Below the pieces are notes generated by a model that was not told where the DNA came from, searched no databases, and saw nothing but the letters and a program-made list of their open reading frames with translations. Of a stretch of DNA of 20,276 bases, positions 10,831-16,958 are shown one piece after another; position 1 is the stretch's first letter; each line of letters opens with the position of its first letter. A program made the position numbers and the translations under genes. Location of the stretch: IMG/VR virus record IMGVR_UViG_3300037193_000457, positions 1-20,276 of that record; one strand, written 5' to 3'. This DNA is from a virus.

Positions 10831-11223
10831 CTAGAGCTTTTTAAAAGGCAAATTATCTCTATTCACCTTAATATTCACTGATACAAATAAGCTGTATACA
10901 GCTATCATTAAGGCAAATATCCATAATACATTTTGCCAGCTCATATAGATTAATCCTCCCATCGATAGAAACCACCAATAAAAACTTAATTGCGTTCCTA
11001 CTAATAGAGTTCTGTATTTATCTCCTATAGACCCCGACAAAATAAAAGATCCAATTATTAGCATTATTGCTGCAACTAACCACTCTGGCACATTATTGAT
11101 ATAGCCTAGTGAATCAAAAGGTAAGCTGATCCAAATGCCCAATAGTATGTTAAAAAATCCTAATATGCTGACGCCAGCAGTATTAATTGGACTTAGCATC
11201 TTCTTTGCTGTTTTTTCTAACAT
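10831..11223 (-). CDS. Four-helix membrane protein of unknown function
   Basis: A 130-residue protein I do not recognise. Four hydrophobic segments are clear at about residues 16-34, 48-66, 73-93 and 98-116, with basic ends (MLEKTAKKML and NRDNLPFKKL), so both termini are predicted inside the cell. The third helix is rich in aromatics (SFYWWFLSMGGLIYMSW). Its ATG shares an A with the portal stop (TAATG), so it is translated with the portal gene. A membrane protein in the head gene cluster could be a holin-like pore, a membrane anchor for prohead assembly or a superinfection factor. There is no gene overlap with the protease gene that follows. Confidence 0.75.
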   Translation of the reverse strand: MLEKTAKKMLSPINTAGVSILGFFNILLGIWISLPFDSLGYINNVPEWLVAAIMLIIGSFILSGSIGDKYRTLLVGTQLSFYWWFLSMGGLIYMSWQNVLWIFALMIAVYSLFVSVNIKVNRDNLPFKKL

Positions 11224-12803
11224 TACGGAGATTTCCTTCCTTCACCCTTAGCATTTCTACCAGAAGATGAATTGGGACTGTCAGATTTATTATTGGCTCT
11301 TTGGGTATCTCTCTCTCTTGTTTTCATAGAATTAGCTTTTTGATCTGCTTGTTGCTGTGCTGTCAATACCATAGGCTCATTACCTTTTCCATCCGGGCGG
11401 GCGGGTTGTCCACGCTTTGCCCTGACTTCATCGGGAACCGCAGAACCATTCTTGATATTTCTATCATCAATTTGTGATTGAGTGTCTTCGTCAACAAGAG
11501 ACAATTCGTTTAGTTTAAATTCAACGATATCAGTAATTTCTTTAAAAATTCTTCTTATTTTCTTTTCGAAGATAGCCTGTTCAGGTCTTGAATAAGATTC
11601 TTTAAATACTTTATCTGCATCTTTCGAGGCGGCCAGAGAAGTACTCTTTCCACTGAACACCCCGGCTCTTGTGGAAGGTATTCTATGTGCCATAAAGATT
11701 TCCTCATTATTTTGCTCTCGGAAATCACCAAATGAAGAATCTTGCTTACCTGCCTCAATTGATTTGAATTCAATTTCTGCATCAACAGATCCTAACGGAA
11801 CATAAACACTTCTATGGTGTTGTCCTCGCAATCCTGTTTCAAAAAATTCCACCAATGTCTGCATGGCTGTAGTTGATAAAGCGGCACCCTTGGTAACAAT
11901 AACATGTCGTGGTATTGCCTTATTTTCAAAATAGTCAAGATTATATCTTGATGCAAATTCATTACCAGCTAATGCATTCTTCGCCGCTATAATATTGGGA
12001 ATACCATAATAGTTGTCATTTGGAGAATACTTCTTAAAATGAATTACTTCATTGGGACTAGAATCATCTCCAATAGGATTAGATGTAGTTTCTCCAAAGT
12101 TTCTAAAGTAAGCAACTCTATTGCCAAATATTTGCACGAATCCATCTCTGTTACGACGCACTCTTACATACTTTGCAGGTAAATGACCTATATAGCCTAT
12201 TCTTCCTTGACTGTCCCGACCGATTTCTAAATATGCGTTTCCCATAGTTTCATAATCTTTACCAATCTTACGCATAATTTCTTCCCATACGTCTTCTCTA
12301 TTGGTCGATTCCAGCCAAACTTCAATATTGTCTCTTGCATCTTGAATTAATTTGTCTAGATTTTTTAAACCTGACGCAGATCTTACCTTTTGTCTTGCAG
12401 ACTTGCTTTTTTTTGATTCAATCCAATCATATCCCAAGCCAAATACGCTTTCCACTTTTGCATCAACGGCAGCCATGTGTGCAGGCGATATTTCATAGAG
12501 TTTTGCAAGATAATCCATATTGTATGGTGGCGTAATACACTCAAGATAATCATACCCATACATTTCATCAACATTGATTTGCTTTGATTTGGCTTTGCCT
12601 GATTGATTCGTATAGGCTTTTGATAACTCTCTATCTTTTCTTCTTACAAAGTTTCTATCCAGGCCCTTCATTTTTCTTATGCCTGGTATTTTAAATACAT
12701 CAAAATCGGCCTCGTCACCTGAAAATCTAACAGATGCTGACCGTGACTTATATACTTGCACCAATTCTGACTGTGTAAAAGTGTCTTCAGCTTCTTCTAT
12801 CAC
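11223..12803 (-). CDS. Portal protein
   Basis: The dodecameric ring at the capsid vertex through which DNA enters and leaves. The 526-residue sequence has the PBSX/SPP1-like portal pattern: ITPPYNMDYLAKLYEISPAH near residue 90, a wing with DYETMGNAYLEIGRD, then FKKYSPNDNYYGIPNIIAA, and NLDYFENKAIPRHVIVTKGA before the clip and stem region. The C-terminal 90 residues are polar and probably disordered. Start is GTG 12803, with GAGG four bases upstream, and overlaps the preceding gene by 17 bases. It probably shares a transcript with the small upstream gene and the downstream membrane gene. I see no terminase gene next to it. Confidence 0.9.
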   Translation of the reverse strand: MIEEAEDTFTQSELVQVYKSRSASVRFSGDEADFDVFKIPGIRKMKGLDRNFVRRKDRELSKAYTNQSGKAKSKQINVDEMYGYDYLECITPPYNMDYLAKLYEISPAHMAAVDAKVESVFGLGYDWIESKKSKSARQKVRSASGLKNLDKLIQDARDNIEVWLESTNREDVWEEIMRKIGKDYETMGNAYLEIGRDSQGRIGYIGHLPAKYVRVRRNRDGFVQIFGNRVAYFRNFGETTSNPIGDDSSPNEVIHFKKYSPNDNYYGIPNIIAAKNALAGNEFASRYNLDYFENKAIPRHVIVTKGAALSTTAMQTLVEFFETGLRGQHHRSVYVPLGSVDAEIEFKSIEAGKQDSSFGDFREQNNEEIFMAHRIPSTRAGVFSGKSTSLAASKDADKVFKESYSRPEQAIFEKKIRRIFKEITDIVEFKLNELSLVDEDTQSQIDDRNIKNGSAVPDEVRAKRGQPARPDGKGNEPMVLTAQQQADQKANSMKTRERDTQRANNKSDSPNSSSGRNAKGEGRKSP

Positions 12804-13140: not shown

Positions 13141-13185
13141 ATATCCTTAAAAATGATGCAAACTATGACCATTTTTAAGGATATT
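13140..13185. repeat. 16-bp perfect inverted repeat, terminator or operator
   Basis: AATATCCTTAAAAATG (13140-13155) and its exact complement (13170-13185) enclose a 14-base spacer. The right arm overlaps the stop codon of the LamG-like gene, and the left arm lies in the spacer of the head-operon promoter. As RNA it would be a long but AT-rich hairpin without a U-run (it is followed by GGTATAAT), so it is a poor terminator by the usual rule. An operator for a dimeric regulator is at least as plausible. Confidence 0.75.
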
Positions 13186-14752
13186 AAATACCACCGCCAC
13201 CAATAATTGCCCATGCGTAAGTATAAACTTTAAATGGAGAAGTTCCATCCGCTTCACTTTCAGTAATATCTGAAGGATTTTCTATTAATGATATGCTGTG
13301 ATAGGAGCTGAGAATTGCATACAATTGAGATGCAGTATCTGCCGATAATTCTGTGGGATATGCAGCAATAAAAGAATATTCAATTATATTAGTTTCTGTT
13401 CGGGATGCGTTGCTGTTTAAGTAAAATTCCGTAGCAGACGTTGATGCTTTTGTCAGGACCAAGTGATTCCACTGGTTTATTCTTGCTTCATCCAAATCAG
13501 TGACAAGGTCTCCATTTAAATAAGCCGTAAAGCCAGTAATAGATCCTGAAGTACCACAAGAAGCAGAACCATCCGCACTATAAAAAACTATTGTTTTATC
13601 ATTATTTCTAGGCATAAATAAAATCTCAATTGTTTTCGGCGAATCGTCATCTATCCATACACCTTCATAAGAAATATCGTATAATTCTACTCCTTCCGGA
13701 AAATTTACTATTGATGAACTATGTGTATCCGGATAAAAAGGTCCACCATTTGGAGTAAGTTCTGCTGGTGTTCTTGTAGATATTTTATTATCGAACATTG
13801 GAAATATATTAATAATAAATGACCTTGTAACATCTTGTGCTCTCACCCGTATCTGTAAAACATAGAAGTCGGCAGAAGGAGAAAAAGAAACTTTTCCTGT
13901 AAAAGCAGTCCACGACACATCATTTGTACTGTAATACATTGGCATATCGGTATAATTTGATTCGATAGAAATTGAATCAAGATCTTCTTCGCTAGACAGA
14001 GGAAACACTGTCGTGTATAAATAATATTCATTTTCTAGAGGGTCTACAGTAAAGTCTGTGGCATATATTTTTTGCCTAGGGAGTCCACGATAACTATCAA
14101 ATAGACTTCCATTTCCTTGATACGTTTTTTCTATAAAACCCAAATAGTCTATTTCAGATGCGTTGATATAATTAGACTTTGATACAAACGTATCCGAATA
14201 GATACCTATCCCGTCTATTGTGTAAGAATTATCCGTTGTGGTTTTAAACGACACATCAATAACTGACAAAGGGTCGGTTTCTCTATATGAAACTTGTGAA
14301 ATTTGCTCGTTCACTTTCAGAGTACAGTAGAGAGAGTCAAAGGTAATTACTACATGCATCTTGCCCGGCCATTTTTCCATTAAAATAAATGCAGATTTTT
14401 GTATTTGATCAACATCGATAAATCTTATCTCAACACCCGTGTTGGTAATAAAAATCCCATTGAGATTATCTGAATCACCAAATACACATACTGGCTCTGT
14501 GGGTTGCATTATTTGCATCACGAACTCCATATTACTATCTTCTCTAAAAAAGATAGGATTACTACTGAAGGCTATTGACTCAGTAGAAGAAATTCGCCAA
14601 GAAGATGGATTACCAACAATAATTGGCTGCCCTACATTCGTAGATGTATTTGTCAGCGTATACAGGGTATTACCAGATTGATCGGACGATGAATTTGAAG
14701 AAAAGTAAAAATCTGGTTTATGGGATATAGCAATTCTATCGTAATTGCTCAT
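13184..14752 (-). CDS. LamG-like tail or receptor-type protein
   Basis: A 522-residue, beta-rich, extracellular-type protein with many Ser, Thr, Asn and Asp residues. Two regions have the laminin-G/concanavalin-like pattern: residues about 30-190 (with KMHVVITFDSLYCTLKVNEQ) and about 340-485 (with NQWNHLVLTKASTSATEFYL). Such domains bind sugars or proteins. In phages they occur in tail fibres, minor tail proteins and capsid decorations. The end is glycine-rich (AWAIIGGGGI). It starts eight bases after the stop of the 146-aa gene and may be translated with it. It lies upstream of the portal gene and not after the tape measure, which is unusual for a tail protein. The domain assignment is from pattern only. 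Confidence 0.6.
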   Translation of the reverse strand: MSNYDRIAISHKPDFYFSSNSSSDQSGNTLYTLTNTSTNVGQPIIVGNPSSWRISSTESIAFSSNPIFFREDSNMEFVMQIMQPTEPVCVFGDSDNLNGIFITNTGVEIRFIDVDQIQKSAFILMEKWPGKMHVVITFDSLYCTLKVNEQISQVSYRETDPLSVIDVSFKTTTDNSYTIDGIGIYSDTFVSKSNYINASEIDYLGFIEKTYQGNGSLFDSYRGLPRQKIYATDFTVDPLENEYYLYTTVFPLSSEEDLDSISIESNYTDMPMYYSTNDVSWTAFTGKVSFSPSADFYVLQIRVRAQDVTRSFIINIFPMFDNKISTRTPAELTPNGGPFYPDTHSSSIVNFPEGVELYDISYEGVWIDDDSPKTIEILFMPRNNDKTIVFYSADGSASCGTSGSITGFTAYLNGDLVTDLDEARINQWNHLVLTKASTSATEFYLNSNASRTETNIIEYSFIAAYPTELSADTASQLYAILSSYHSISLIENPSDITESEADGTSPFKVYTYAWAIIGGGGI

Positions 14753-14760
14753 ATTATCAC

Positions 14761-15201
14761 TTACTTAGCTATCCATTCGATTCGGCCATCATACTTATAT
14801 AAAGTAGGAGGGGGAGATACATAGGTAGGATACGCGCTAGAATTCCACATGGTATGAGTTGTTTCCACGTTGACACTCACTTCATTGGTGGAAGTGTATC
14901 TTAGTTTAAACAAACTTTCTCCTGCAAAGAGAACCTTCCATATACGTGTTTCTTTGGCAAGAGTCCAGTTATCGAAACTGGTTCCTACTGCACCAACATA
15001 GTCAACATGTCTATAGCCTTTAACATTTGGATTTCCAGGAACATACTCATTAATAAAAATGGCTTCGTGAACAGTCATATCAGCGGTGTGTGTTGCCCAT
15101 GAAACTACTACTCCACCCAGCCATGAACCGGCCGTGGGAATATTAACCAATTTGGTAATATTTGTCCCAGCCGGTAGTTGAACAGTAAAGGTACTTGCCA
15201 T
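14761..15201 (-). CDS. 146-aa beta-rich protein, unknown
   Basis: I do not recognise this protein. It is 146 residues, rich in Thr, Val, Trp and Asn, with no membrane segment or signal peptide and a predicted all-beta character (TFTVQLPAGTNITKLVNIP, later LFKLRYTSTNEVSVNVETTH). The composition looks like a virion surface protein, and it precedes the LamG-like gene on what is probably the same transcript. Its ATG has no properly spaced Shine-Dalgarno sequence (GGAAG is 15 bases away). TGTTATAAT ends six bases before the ATG, so the mRNA should be leaderless. Confidence 0.65.
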   Translation of the reverse strand: MASTFTVQLPAGTNITKLVNIPTAGSWLGGVVVSWATHTADMTVHEAIFINEYVPGNPNVKGYRHVDYVGAVGTSFDNWTLAKETRIWKVLFAGESLFKLRYTSTNEVSVNVETTHTMWNSSAYPTYVSPPPTLYKYDGRIEWIAK

Positions 15202-15207
15202 ATCGTT

Positions 15208-15216
15208 ATTATAACA
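15208..15216 (-). promoter_or_regulatory. Extended -10 promoter, leaderless, inside the PAS stop
   Basis: TGT plus TATAAT (15213-15208) places +1 at 15201, the A of the 146-aa gene ATG. The TAA of TATAAT region is also the PAS gene stop, so the promoter is embedded in the end of that gene. The spacing of six bases is identical to the head-operon promoter. Confidence 0.65.
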
Positions 15217-15628
15217 CTTCCTTAGAAATTCTACGAATAAATGCTACATAATAAATAGTGCCATCATATTGAATATAAGATAAGTCTATATCTATTGGAA
15301 GCTCTTCTCCATCAATTTTCATAATTGCAGGTGATAATCCATGCCTATTTGTTTTTTTCTCTGGTTTTGATGCAAACTCTTTTTCAAATTTCTTATGAGC
15401 TTTTTTGAACCTATTTGGAATAACTTCTTTTACGTCTTTTCCTAAGATCTCAGTTCCAAATCCGGTCATTTCAGTAAAAGCATCATTTATTAAAAAGAAT
15501 TTCATGTTCGCATTAAATACAGCCACACCTAGTGGACACTCATCAAAAAGTAGCTGCCATATTTCAGCTCTTTCAATTAATCTTTCGAGATCGAACGACA
15601 TACGATTTACTCTATCTTCTATATTCAT
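15209..15628 (-). CDS. Stand-alone PAS-domain protein
   Basis: A 139-residue protein that is almost entirely one PAS domain, a small sensor fold that binds ligands, haem or flavin, or mediates dimer formation. Residues 1-24 form a helix (MNIEDRVNRMSFDLERLIER). Residues 25-137 follow the classic PAS order: CPLGVAVFNANMKFFLINDA, MTGFGTEILGKDVKEVIP, a long helix, then LSPAIMKIDGEELPIDIDLS and the final strand YYVAFIRRIS. His78 lies seven residues after Pro71, the spacing of the haem-binding His in FixL (PEPDRSRH), but this position is often His in PAS domains that do not bind haem. No kinase, cyclase or DNA-binding domain is present, so it must act through a partner. TGTTATAAT lies nine bases before the ATG. 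Confidence 0.85.
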   Translation of the reverse strand: MNIEDRVNRMSFDLERLIERAEIWQLLFDECPLGVAVFNANMKFFLINDAFTEMTGFGTEILGKDVKEVIPNRFKKAHKKFEKEFASKPEKKTNRHGLSPAIMKIDGEELPIDIDLSYIQYDGTIYYVAFIRRISKEVL

Positions 15629-15637
15629 ATCAATTGG

Positions 15638-15646
15638 ATTATAACA
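15638..15646 (-). promoter_or_regulatory. Extended -10 promoter of the PAS gene
   Basis: TGT plus TATAAT (15643-15638) predicts +1 near 15631, giving a three-base leader before ATG 15628. A weak -35 candidate TTGCTT lies 17 bases upstream, overlapping the terminator U-tract. Confidence 0.6.
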
Positions 15647-15663
15647 ATCATTAAAAGATAAAG

Positions 15664-15692
15664 CAAAAGGAGCCCATTAAGGGCTCCTTTTG
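15664..15692 (-). terminator. Terminator of the small RNA unit and endolysin
   Basis: A perfect 12-bp stem (CAAAAGGAGCCC and its complement) with a five-base loop, followed on the minus strand by CTTTATCTTTT. The stem's own 3' arm ends CCTTTTG, giving a U-run. A strong Rho-independent terminator, 73 bases past the endolysin stop, just before the PAS promoter. Confidence 0.85.
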
Positions 15693-15750
15693 TATCCTAA
15701 ACAATAGTCGAAATTCACACGAAGCGATTTCTCCCGTCCAACGGGCCGGT
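15664..15750 (-). ncRNA. Candidate small RNA between endolysin and PAS gene
   Basis: A promoter (TGTTATAAT, 15765-15757) and a strong terminator (15692-15664) frame an 87-base unit with no credible reading frame: no ATG, and the only short frame starts TTG and has eight codons. The transcript would begin ACCGGCCCG and is more GC-rich than its surroundings. It can fold into CCCGT-TGG-ACGGG (15745-15733), GAAAT/ATTTC with an inner CGC/GUG pairing (15731-15710), and the terminator hairpin. It could be a trans-acting small RNA, or a leader that controls readthrough into the PAS gene. A plain 3' untranslated region of the endolysin mRNA cannot be excluded. It does not fold as a tRNA. Confidence 0.5.
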
Positions 15751-15756
15751 AAAACA

Positions 15757-15765
15757 ATTATAACA
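15757..15765 (-). promoter_or_regulatory. Extended -10 promoter of the candidate small RNA
   Basis: TGT plus a perfect TATAAT (15762-15757) directly after the endolysin TAA. It predicts +1 at A15750. This is the same nine-base string seen before the PAS and 146-aa genes, but no start codon follows it. Confidence 0.55.
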
Positions 15766-16926
15766 TTATTTTAGTAATTCTGCCCAATCGTCCCACCATA
15801 CTTCACCAAATCTTGTGGTACCAGGCATATGTGCACGTTGCCATGCCGCTACAGCATTCGCTGTTGGTTGTTCATATACTCCATCCGCCCAACCTGGCGT
15901 ATTAGGAGCAAATCCCTTACGCTGTAGAGCCTCTTGAATCATTTTAACCCAAGGGCGTTCATGGGCGTAATATCCACCATGACTTGCTGCTGGTCCCGTA
16001 ACTAAACCAAAGTATTCATTTCTTGGTAATGGAAATGTAGGTACAGATGGACTAGGTGCGGGCGCTGGTTGTGGTGTCGGTGCTGGTGTTGAAGCTTTGC
16101 CTTGAATTAAGGCTTCCCAGTCATCCCACCAAACTTCTCCAAATCTAGTAGTTCCTGGCATACTGGCTCTTTGCCATGCTGCGACCGCGTCGGCAGTAGG
16201 TTGTTCATAAATTCCATCTGCCCATCCTGAATCTTTTGGAGCAAATCCCTTATTTTGTAAAGCCTGTTGAATCTGCTTTACCCATACTCTTTCACTCTCA
16301 TTGAATCCACCATGTGACTCATCTGGACCAGTAATAAGGCCAAAGTATTCGTCACGTGGTAATGGGAATGTAACAGCAGGAGCAGTAGGTGCACCACCGC
16401 CACCACCGCCGGAACCCGGACTAGGAGTAGGATTCAATCCTAGTGCCTTATCTATGACATAGTCCCAAGGAAAGTTGGGTCCGGGATCAGTATGATCGCC
16501 ATCTCCTATCCTCGAATAAGTCCAGTCTGCGTGACCAATTACACCTGACATGCCAGCGTCAATTTGTACTGGTGATAGTTTTCTAATTGGAATTCCTCTG
16601 GCCTTGCAACGATCAGCTATCCATTGAGCTGCTAAATCTAGCATTCGTTGGTTTTGAAACCATTCTGCACGAGTCCATCTAGCAAAAGCACACAATTCAG
16701 CATTATCGCTAATTGGATTTCCGTTCAACAGAGTCCAAGACATTCTGTCGTAATATACATATTGTTCTATTCTATTATTGTCGATACCCACATGAGAACT
16801 TGCCGGAACACCTGATTGAAAATATCTTCCCAATGACTCTACTGTTCTGGCACCTTCAGCACTGTGAATTACAACCAGACGCACATTTGCGCCTCCCCTT
16901 GATGAATGATTAGGGCTTGGAATCAA
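15766..16926 (-). CDS. Endolysin: N-acetylmuramoyl-L-alanine amidase with two cell-wall repeats
   Basis: Cuts the bond between muramic acid and the peptide at lysis. From TTG 16926 it has 386 residues. Residues 12-165 form an Amidase_2/PGRP domain with likely zinc ligands His21 (VVIHSAEG), His132 (VIGHADW) and Asp147 (HTDPGPNFPW). A glycine- and proline-rich linker leads to two 89-residue repeats (187-275, 298-386) that share GWADG, YEQPTA, AVAAWQRA and TTRFGEVWWDDW. They are separated by another Pro/Ala linker and probably bind the cell wall. There is no signal peptide, so a holin would be required. I chose TTG 16926 over TTG 16941 because GAGGTG lies seven bases before it and the predicted transcript starts at 16939. 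Confidence 0.9.
   Translation of the reverse strand: MIPSPNHSSRGGANVRLVVIHSAEGARTVESLGRYFQSGVPASSHVGIDNNRIEQYVYYDRMSWTLLNGNPISDNAELCAFARWTRAEWFQNQRMLDLAAQWIADRCKARGIPIRKLSPVQIDAGMSGVIGHADWTYSRIGDGDHTDPGPNFPWDYVIDKALGLNPTPSPGSGGGGGGAPTAPAVTFPLPRDEYFGLITGPDESHGGFNESERVWVKQIQQALQNKGFAPKDSGWADGIYEQPTADAVAAWQRASMPGTTRFGEVWWDDWEALIQGKASTPAPTPQPAPAPSPSVPTFPLPRNEYFGLVTGPAASHGGYYAHERPWVKMIQEALQRKGFAPNTPGWADGVYEQPTANAVAAWQRAHMPGTTRFGEVWWDDWAELLK
15769..16035 (-). repeat. Endolysin wall-binding repeat, C-terminal copy
   Basis: 267 bases encoding FPLPRNEYFG to DDWAELLK. It is the same length as the copy at 16102-16368 and clearly a duplication at protein level, with diverged synonymous positions, so the duplication is old. 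Confidence 0.85.
16102..16368 (-). repeat. Endolysin wall-binding repeat, first copy
   Basis: 267 bases encoding FPLPRDEYFG to DDWEALIQ. Differences from the second copy cluster in the middle (ESHGGFNESERVWVKQ against ASHGGYYAHERPWVKM), while the C-terminal WQRA to WWDDW part is nearly identical. Confidence 0.85.
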
Positions 16927-16930
16927 ATTA

Positions 16931-16958
16931 ATACACCTCAATTACATTGTAGGTGTAT
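16931..16958. repeat. 8-bp inverted repeat over the endolysin promoter and RBS
   Basis: ATACACCT and AGGTGTAT are complements 12 bases apart. One arm covers part of the -10 region, the other the Shine-Dalgarno GAGGTG. In DNA it may be an operator. In a longer readthrough transcript from the reductase gene the hairpin would hide the ribosome-binding site. Confidence 0.5.

Follow-up and report, generated by a model that had tools for sequence, protein, structure and literature searches.

The window, by which we mean the whole of the 20,276-base virus record IMGVR_UViG_3300037193_000457, carries two small elements between its endolysin gene and its virion-side genes. On the minus strand, the endolysin gene (15766..16941), to whose product the domain search assigned an Amidase_2 and two PG_binding_1 domains, is followed by a predicted small non-coding RNA gene (15661..15750), by a gene encoding a single-domain PAS protein (15628..15209) and by a gene for a 146-aa product (14761..15201) with its own TATAAT box (15213-15208). 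A LamG-like gene on the virion side (13184-14752) and the portal gene (11223-12803) come after these. The 146-aa product had no match in PDB, PHROG or PADLOC, and PADLOC returned no defence match. In some relatives this gene is present as two tandem paralogues (L019, 6947-7956; L022, 6891-7963; L115, 480-1481).

StarPlatinum and Coruscant have an order of genes similar to that of the window (glycosyltransferase, ribonucleotide reductase, endolysin, LamG-like protein, small gene, portal), and the portal protein shares 47-50% identity with its counterparts in StarPlatinum and other Streptomyces BE phages. The window derives from an uncultivated relative of these phages (Stanwilliamsviridae), of which it is a fragment. 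The host is likely an actinobacterium, since WhiB, which belongs to a family known elsewhere from actinobacteria, is encoded by the near IMG/VR relatives L004, L005 and L019 as well as by StarPlatinum. TATAAT boxes are located 6-9 nt ahead of the gene starts at 15201, 15628, 10813 and 19413 without a Shine-Dalgarno sequence, which suggests leaderless transcripts for several genes of the window; leaderless-type starts are consistent with an actinobacterial host. The type of lysin varies among the window, L003, L004, L019, L022 and L024 (amidases with PG-binding repeats, LysM amidases, GH25-like enzymes and others). The genes on either side are retained, so that the lysin acts like a cassette next to the RNA. 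As a separate observation, the ribonucleotide reductase of L023 (418-4617) has 1399 aa and does not resemble the enzyme of 649 aa encoded in the window; its long insertions look like two inteins.

The PAS gene starts with ATG and encodes 139 aa. A sequence-only reading had described the product as a PAS domain without output domain, encoded between lysin and virion genes and transcribed from its own leaderless-type promoter, and had named profile searches and structure prediction as checks; this description was borne out. The product matched the Pfam families PAS_8 (1.6e-6) and PAS (3.4e-5), both over the gathering score, and NCBIfam TIGR00229 (3.3e-11) past its cut-off, with nothing besides PAS detected in the domain search. 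An AlphaFold2 model based on ten sequences (pLDDT 82; a model from five sequences was poor, with pLDDT 52) matched PAS structures and showed the fold of FixL and DosP. The TATAAT box of the gene (15638..15643, minus strand) lies 9 nt ahead of the ATG, without a Shine-Dalgarno sequence, and the transcript is predicted to be leaderless or near-leaderless. Promoter-like matches across the whole window were at chance level (61 found, 61.4 expected), and support for the promoter therefore comes from position and conservation: the box is kept in the homologues inspected, as is the terminator ahead of it in the relatives read. PAS domains are known in giant-virus and phage proteins, mostly longer ones, and finding one in a virus is therefore no novelty in its own right.

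Both sequence and fold place the protein closest to the heme PAS domains of the FixL/DosP type, as judged from profiles and a predicted model. A profile of ten homologues ranked the heme PAS domains of FG214 (1.3e-9), DosP (5e-9) and FixL (1.1e-7) first in PDB, compared with 4.5e-4 to 9e-3 for the best PAS domains of other types, and the NCBIfam DosP model matched at 3.9e-9. In Foldseek, ranks 1-25 were all EcDOS/DosP, FixL (including an R220A entry) or FG214, with DosP of E. coli (EcDOS) on top. VIA gave the highest Z to FixL (15.6), followed by EcDOS (14.9); LOV and other PAS domains were close behind at 12-14, and the fold alone is therefore a weak separator. The photoreactive cysteine motif of LOV domains (NCRFLQ) is absent, the only cysteine (C31) lying outside that motif. 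Of the signals that had been suggested for the protein, the redox or oxygen type thus gains support and is narrowed by profile and Foldseek to the heme-PAS subgroup; binding of heme itself we infer from the residues described below.

A HMMER alignment to full-length DosP, beginning at residue 30, pairs His78 in F-alpha (codon 15395..15397, minus strand) with His77, the proximal heme ligand of DosP, and His96 in the FG loop (15341..15343, minus strand) with Met95, the distal ligand, at equal spacing. These are the sole histidines of the window protein. In an alignment of twelve sequences including the window, two of which (L024 and L111) are identical over most of the protein, H78 and R95-H96-G97 were invariant in all, among 25 invariant columns. 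An F-alpha histidine is also shared with FixL, which is a pentacoordinate kinase with a distal Arg220, unlike the window protein. The O2-stabilising arginine (R97 in DosP, R220 in FixL) is replaced by L98 in the window and by L, I or V in the homologues. A distal arginine is a feature of O2 sensors and not of every heme PAS, and without an equivalent of Arg97 O2 may not be the ligand. This absence argues against a DosP-like O2 sensor and may be compatible with sensing of redox state, CO or NO. DosP further differs in being a c-di-GMP phosphodiesterase and in having methionine, not histidine, as distal ligand. The best match by sequence profile was the HTH-PAS heme transcription factor FG214 (PMC13060918; PDB 10jx), for which a preprint reports histidines as both proximal (H156) and distal (H175) ligand, and in which displacement of the distal histidine accompanies dimerisation (PMC13060918). 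FG214 has an HTH output, which is missing here, and its two histidines are spaced by 19 residues instead of 18. Within this cluster of PAS domains, no more than 60% have the F-alpha histidine (PMC10468136), so membership of the cluster alone is no proof of heme. The two invariant histidines nevertheless point to putative bis-His coordination of heme through H78 and H96.

Scans of viral contigs found homologues of the PAS protein, 45-84% identical to it, confined to this phage lineage. Where the contig allows, they share the slot between the lysin and the 146-aa, LamG and portal genes, usually behind a terminator and with their own -10 box. Among portal relatives of at least 54% identity whose contig covers this slot, only L021 does not have the gene; none of 35 more distant portal relatives, all with 5 kb or more of sequence ahead of the portal gene, has it. 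Each genome searched has one copy, except StarPlatinum with zero. Searches by tblastn gave no match for the window protein in phage isolates and plasmids, and none when a divergent homologue was compared with phages. Cellular genomes, scanned twice by pattern, yielded no relative either, by a method that reaches close relatives only. The association of a PAS gene with a lysin, proposed as something to look for in other phages, accordingly recurs in related viral contigs and was not found in phage isolates. For L006-L010, the sole pair with unsaturated dS, dN/dS was 0.044; the gene is, by this estimate, under purifying selection.

The RNA gene next to it would yield a transcript of ~90 nt with a predicted start at A15750. 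All its elements are on the minus strand: a TATAAT -10 box (15757..15762) just past the lysin stop and 6 nt ahead of the predicted start, a 5' hairpin (CCCGUUGGACGGG, 15733..15745) conserved in L001, L006 and L004, a second hairpin (15710..15731), a UUUAGGAU motif (15694..15701) of which most relatives and isolates retain (U)UAGGA, and an intrinsic terminator of 12 pairs (15664..15692). This terminator is the strongest in the window and insulates the PAS gene from the lysin. The 58 nt preceding the terminator hairpin are 88% identical (51/58) between the window and L001, whereas four neighbouring genes give 50% over their 528 four-fold sites; for L006 the corresponding values are 88% for the non-terminator part and 41%. 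Aligned sequence thus provides strong evidence for constraint on a non-coding stretch. The fold z of the whole RNA was -3.7, mostly contributed by the terminator, and the 5' part (z 0.2) was no more stable than shuffled sequence. The unit contains no conserved reading frame, and a small ORF was ruled out, as indels among isolates are not multiples of three. The view of the locus as holding a separate promoter-terminator unit that encodes no protein is upheld by the conserved TATAAT layout, the strength of the terminator and the excess of identity over four-fold sites. Rfam gave no match at gathering score, a target search by complementarity and duplex energy yielded nothing convincing, and the complement of the motif is absent from the coding strand of the window.

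A comparable unit follows the endolysin of StarPlatinum, and blastn detected a matching unit after the endolysin in 126 Streptomyces phage records, all without the PAS gene; in fourteen further stretches inspected, no RNA or other separate feature was annotated on it. The isolates show the layout of a -10 box, six bases, a start A, a hairpin, a second hairpin, CUUAGGAU and a terminator, and the -10 box with its 6-nt spacing is common to window, relatives and isolates. Covariation among 15 isolates was compared with 500 shuffles. The structure had 96.2% paired cells and ten pairs changed on both sides (shuffle mean 5.4), its score exceeded those of all 500 shuffles, and sliding the pair partners by at least one column reduced pairing to less than 50%. 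Most of the covariation is in the terminator and the basal stem; the 5' hairpin has two pairs changed on both sides. The RNA model terminator part also has two identically scoring matches elsewhere in StarPlatinum (NC_048721.1, 1320-1353 and 123007-123040), one near each genome end and possibly in terminal repeats.

Neither of two models built for this RNA recovered the window copy: the full, isolate-only model (R1) detected L022 (E 1.2e-4) along with weak matches such as L023, and the sequence-only core model (R2) found L024 at 7.7e-4. The case for homology between window and isolates accordingly comes from position and layout, from the UUAGGA motif and from L004, whose RNA joins a 5' part of window type to a CUACUUUAGGA 3' part. 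The RNAs of StarPlatinum and other Streptomyces BE phages share with the window the -10 box, the 6-nt spacing, the hairpins, UUAGGA, the terminator and adjacency to the lysin, and differ in the sequence of the 5' hairpin. We regard homology as likely, and the window RNA and the unannotated Stanwilliamsviridae RNA probably form one family. A pattern scan of viral contigs gave true matches only within this phage family, the remainder being chance-like.

PAS gene and RNA have separate -10 boxes with a terminator in between. In L003, L004, L010, L019 and L022 the RNA is situated upstream of the lysin, between it and the ribonucleotide reductase, and the PAS gene downstream; with the RNA across the lysin from the PAS gene, the two are separate modules. 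L021 has the RNA and no PAS gene. Taken together with the 126 isolate records, these arrangements speak against treating the two as one unit, and the link to the timing of lysis or to virion gene expression proposed in the sequence-only reading found no support. Nothing points to a joint function, though the two could have one.

We therefore favor, with a probability of about 0.6, two adjacent and independent modules, a heme-type PAS sensor and a separately transcribed RNA. The sensor would be a phage-encoded protein of FixL/DosP type reduced to its sensor domain, with heme b held between H78 and H96. A redox change or binding of O2, CO or NO might displace H96 on the FG loop, which, as reported for FG214, could alter the dimer or expose a surface. 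The signal would then leave by contact with another protein, most likely one of the host, because the protein lacks an output domain and related phage genomes yielded no convincing histidine kinase. HATPase matches in those genomes were below cut-off and inside frames of ~640-680 aa, probably gyrase/topoisomerase, and a search for sigma-70 region 2 as a phage-encoded partner found none. The second module would be the terminated, ~90-nt non-coding RNA beside the lysin, for which a trans-acting regulatory or protein-binding role seems likeliest.

The same PAS protein might act without heme, dimerising with a host PAS kinase or regulator as a dominant-negative decoy, with histidines that are structural or metal-binding. 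PAS domains are common interaction modules, the lack of an output domain would suit a decoy, and the N-terminal helix (RAExWQxLFDE) is conserved where PAS dimers pair; we still consider this unlikely, as both axial-ligand positions are invariant histidines, the only ones in the window protein, and it is heme PAS domains that come closest to it in sequence and in fold. The missing output domain would equally suit a bis-His heme or electron carrier or scavenger that protects from heme or peroxide stress during infection and senses nothing, and b-type hemes with bis-His ligation commonly serve in electron transfer or as redox centres. Yet the characterised heme-PAS relatives are sensors, and we know of no PAS-fold heme or electron carrier, which makes such a role very improbable. 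About as improbable is a virion or assembly component: the gene is fixed between the lysin and the 146-aa, LamG and portal genes and travels with the 146-aa gene among virion-side genes, but it encodes a PAS fold behind a terminator-insulated promoter of its own, and L021 and StarPlatinum keep the LamG-like and portal genes without it.

For the second module, the rival is that no RNA gene exists and the unit is merely the 3' end of the lysin mRNA with its terminator. The terminator directly past the lysin and the ordinary stability outside it would fit. However, L004 has an RNA 79% identical in its non-terminator part that is placed ahead of an unrelated lysin, on the side of the ribonucleotide reductase, and so the RNA is not simply the lysin 3' end; the conserved -10 box with its 6-nt spacing and the 88% identity against 50% at four-fold sites also tell against this reading, which we judge improbable. 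A separately transcribed RNA remains our preferred interpretation.

Each module has a precedent in other phages. VqmA of vibriophage VP882 is a PAS sensor encoded by a phage and responsive to a host cue; it binds DPO, has a DNA-binding domain and governs the choice of a temperate phage between lysis and lysogeny (PMC8284805), whereas the window protein has no DNA-binding domain. Abundant small RNAs of the mycobacteriophages D29, L5 and StarStuff provide a precedent for stable non-coding RNAs in actinobacteriophages (PMC5712189). They are transcribed at the right genome end from an early promoter, unlike the window RNA beside its lysin, and are likened to it by kind, not by sequence. The papers searched contained no account of a heme-based sensor of gas or redox state encoded by a phage. 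Tentatively, and at somewhat less than even odds, we propose that one lineage of large actinobacteriophages from soil may carry its own bis-His heme sensor, which would read the redox or gas state of the infected host, act through a host protein and be the first of its kind from a phage, and that the wider family shares a previously undescribed RNA beside the lysin. Because Streptomyces phages that are well studied and can be cultivated have the RNA unit, its expression and necessity are open to immediate testing even though the phage of the window is uncultivated. If the protein does bind heme, phages of soil actinobacteria would read the respiration or redox state of their hosts directly.
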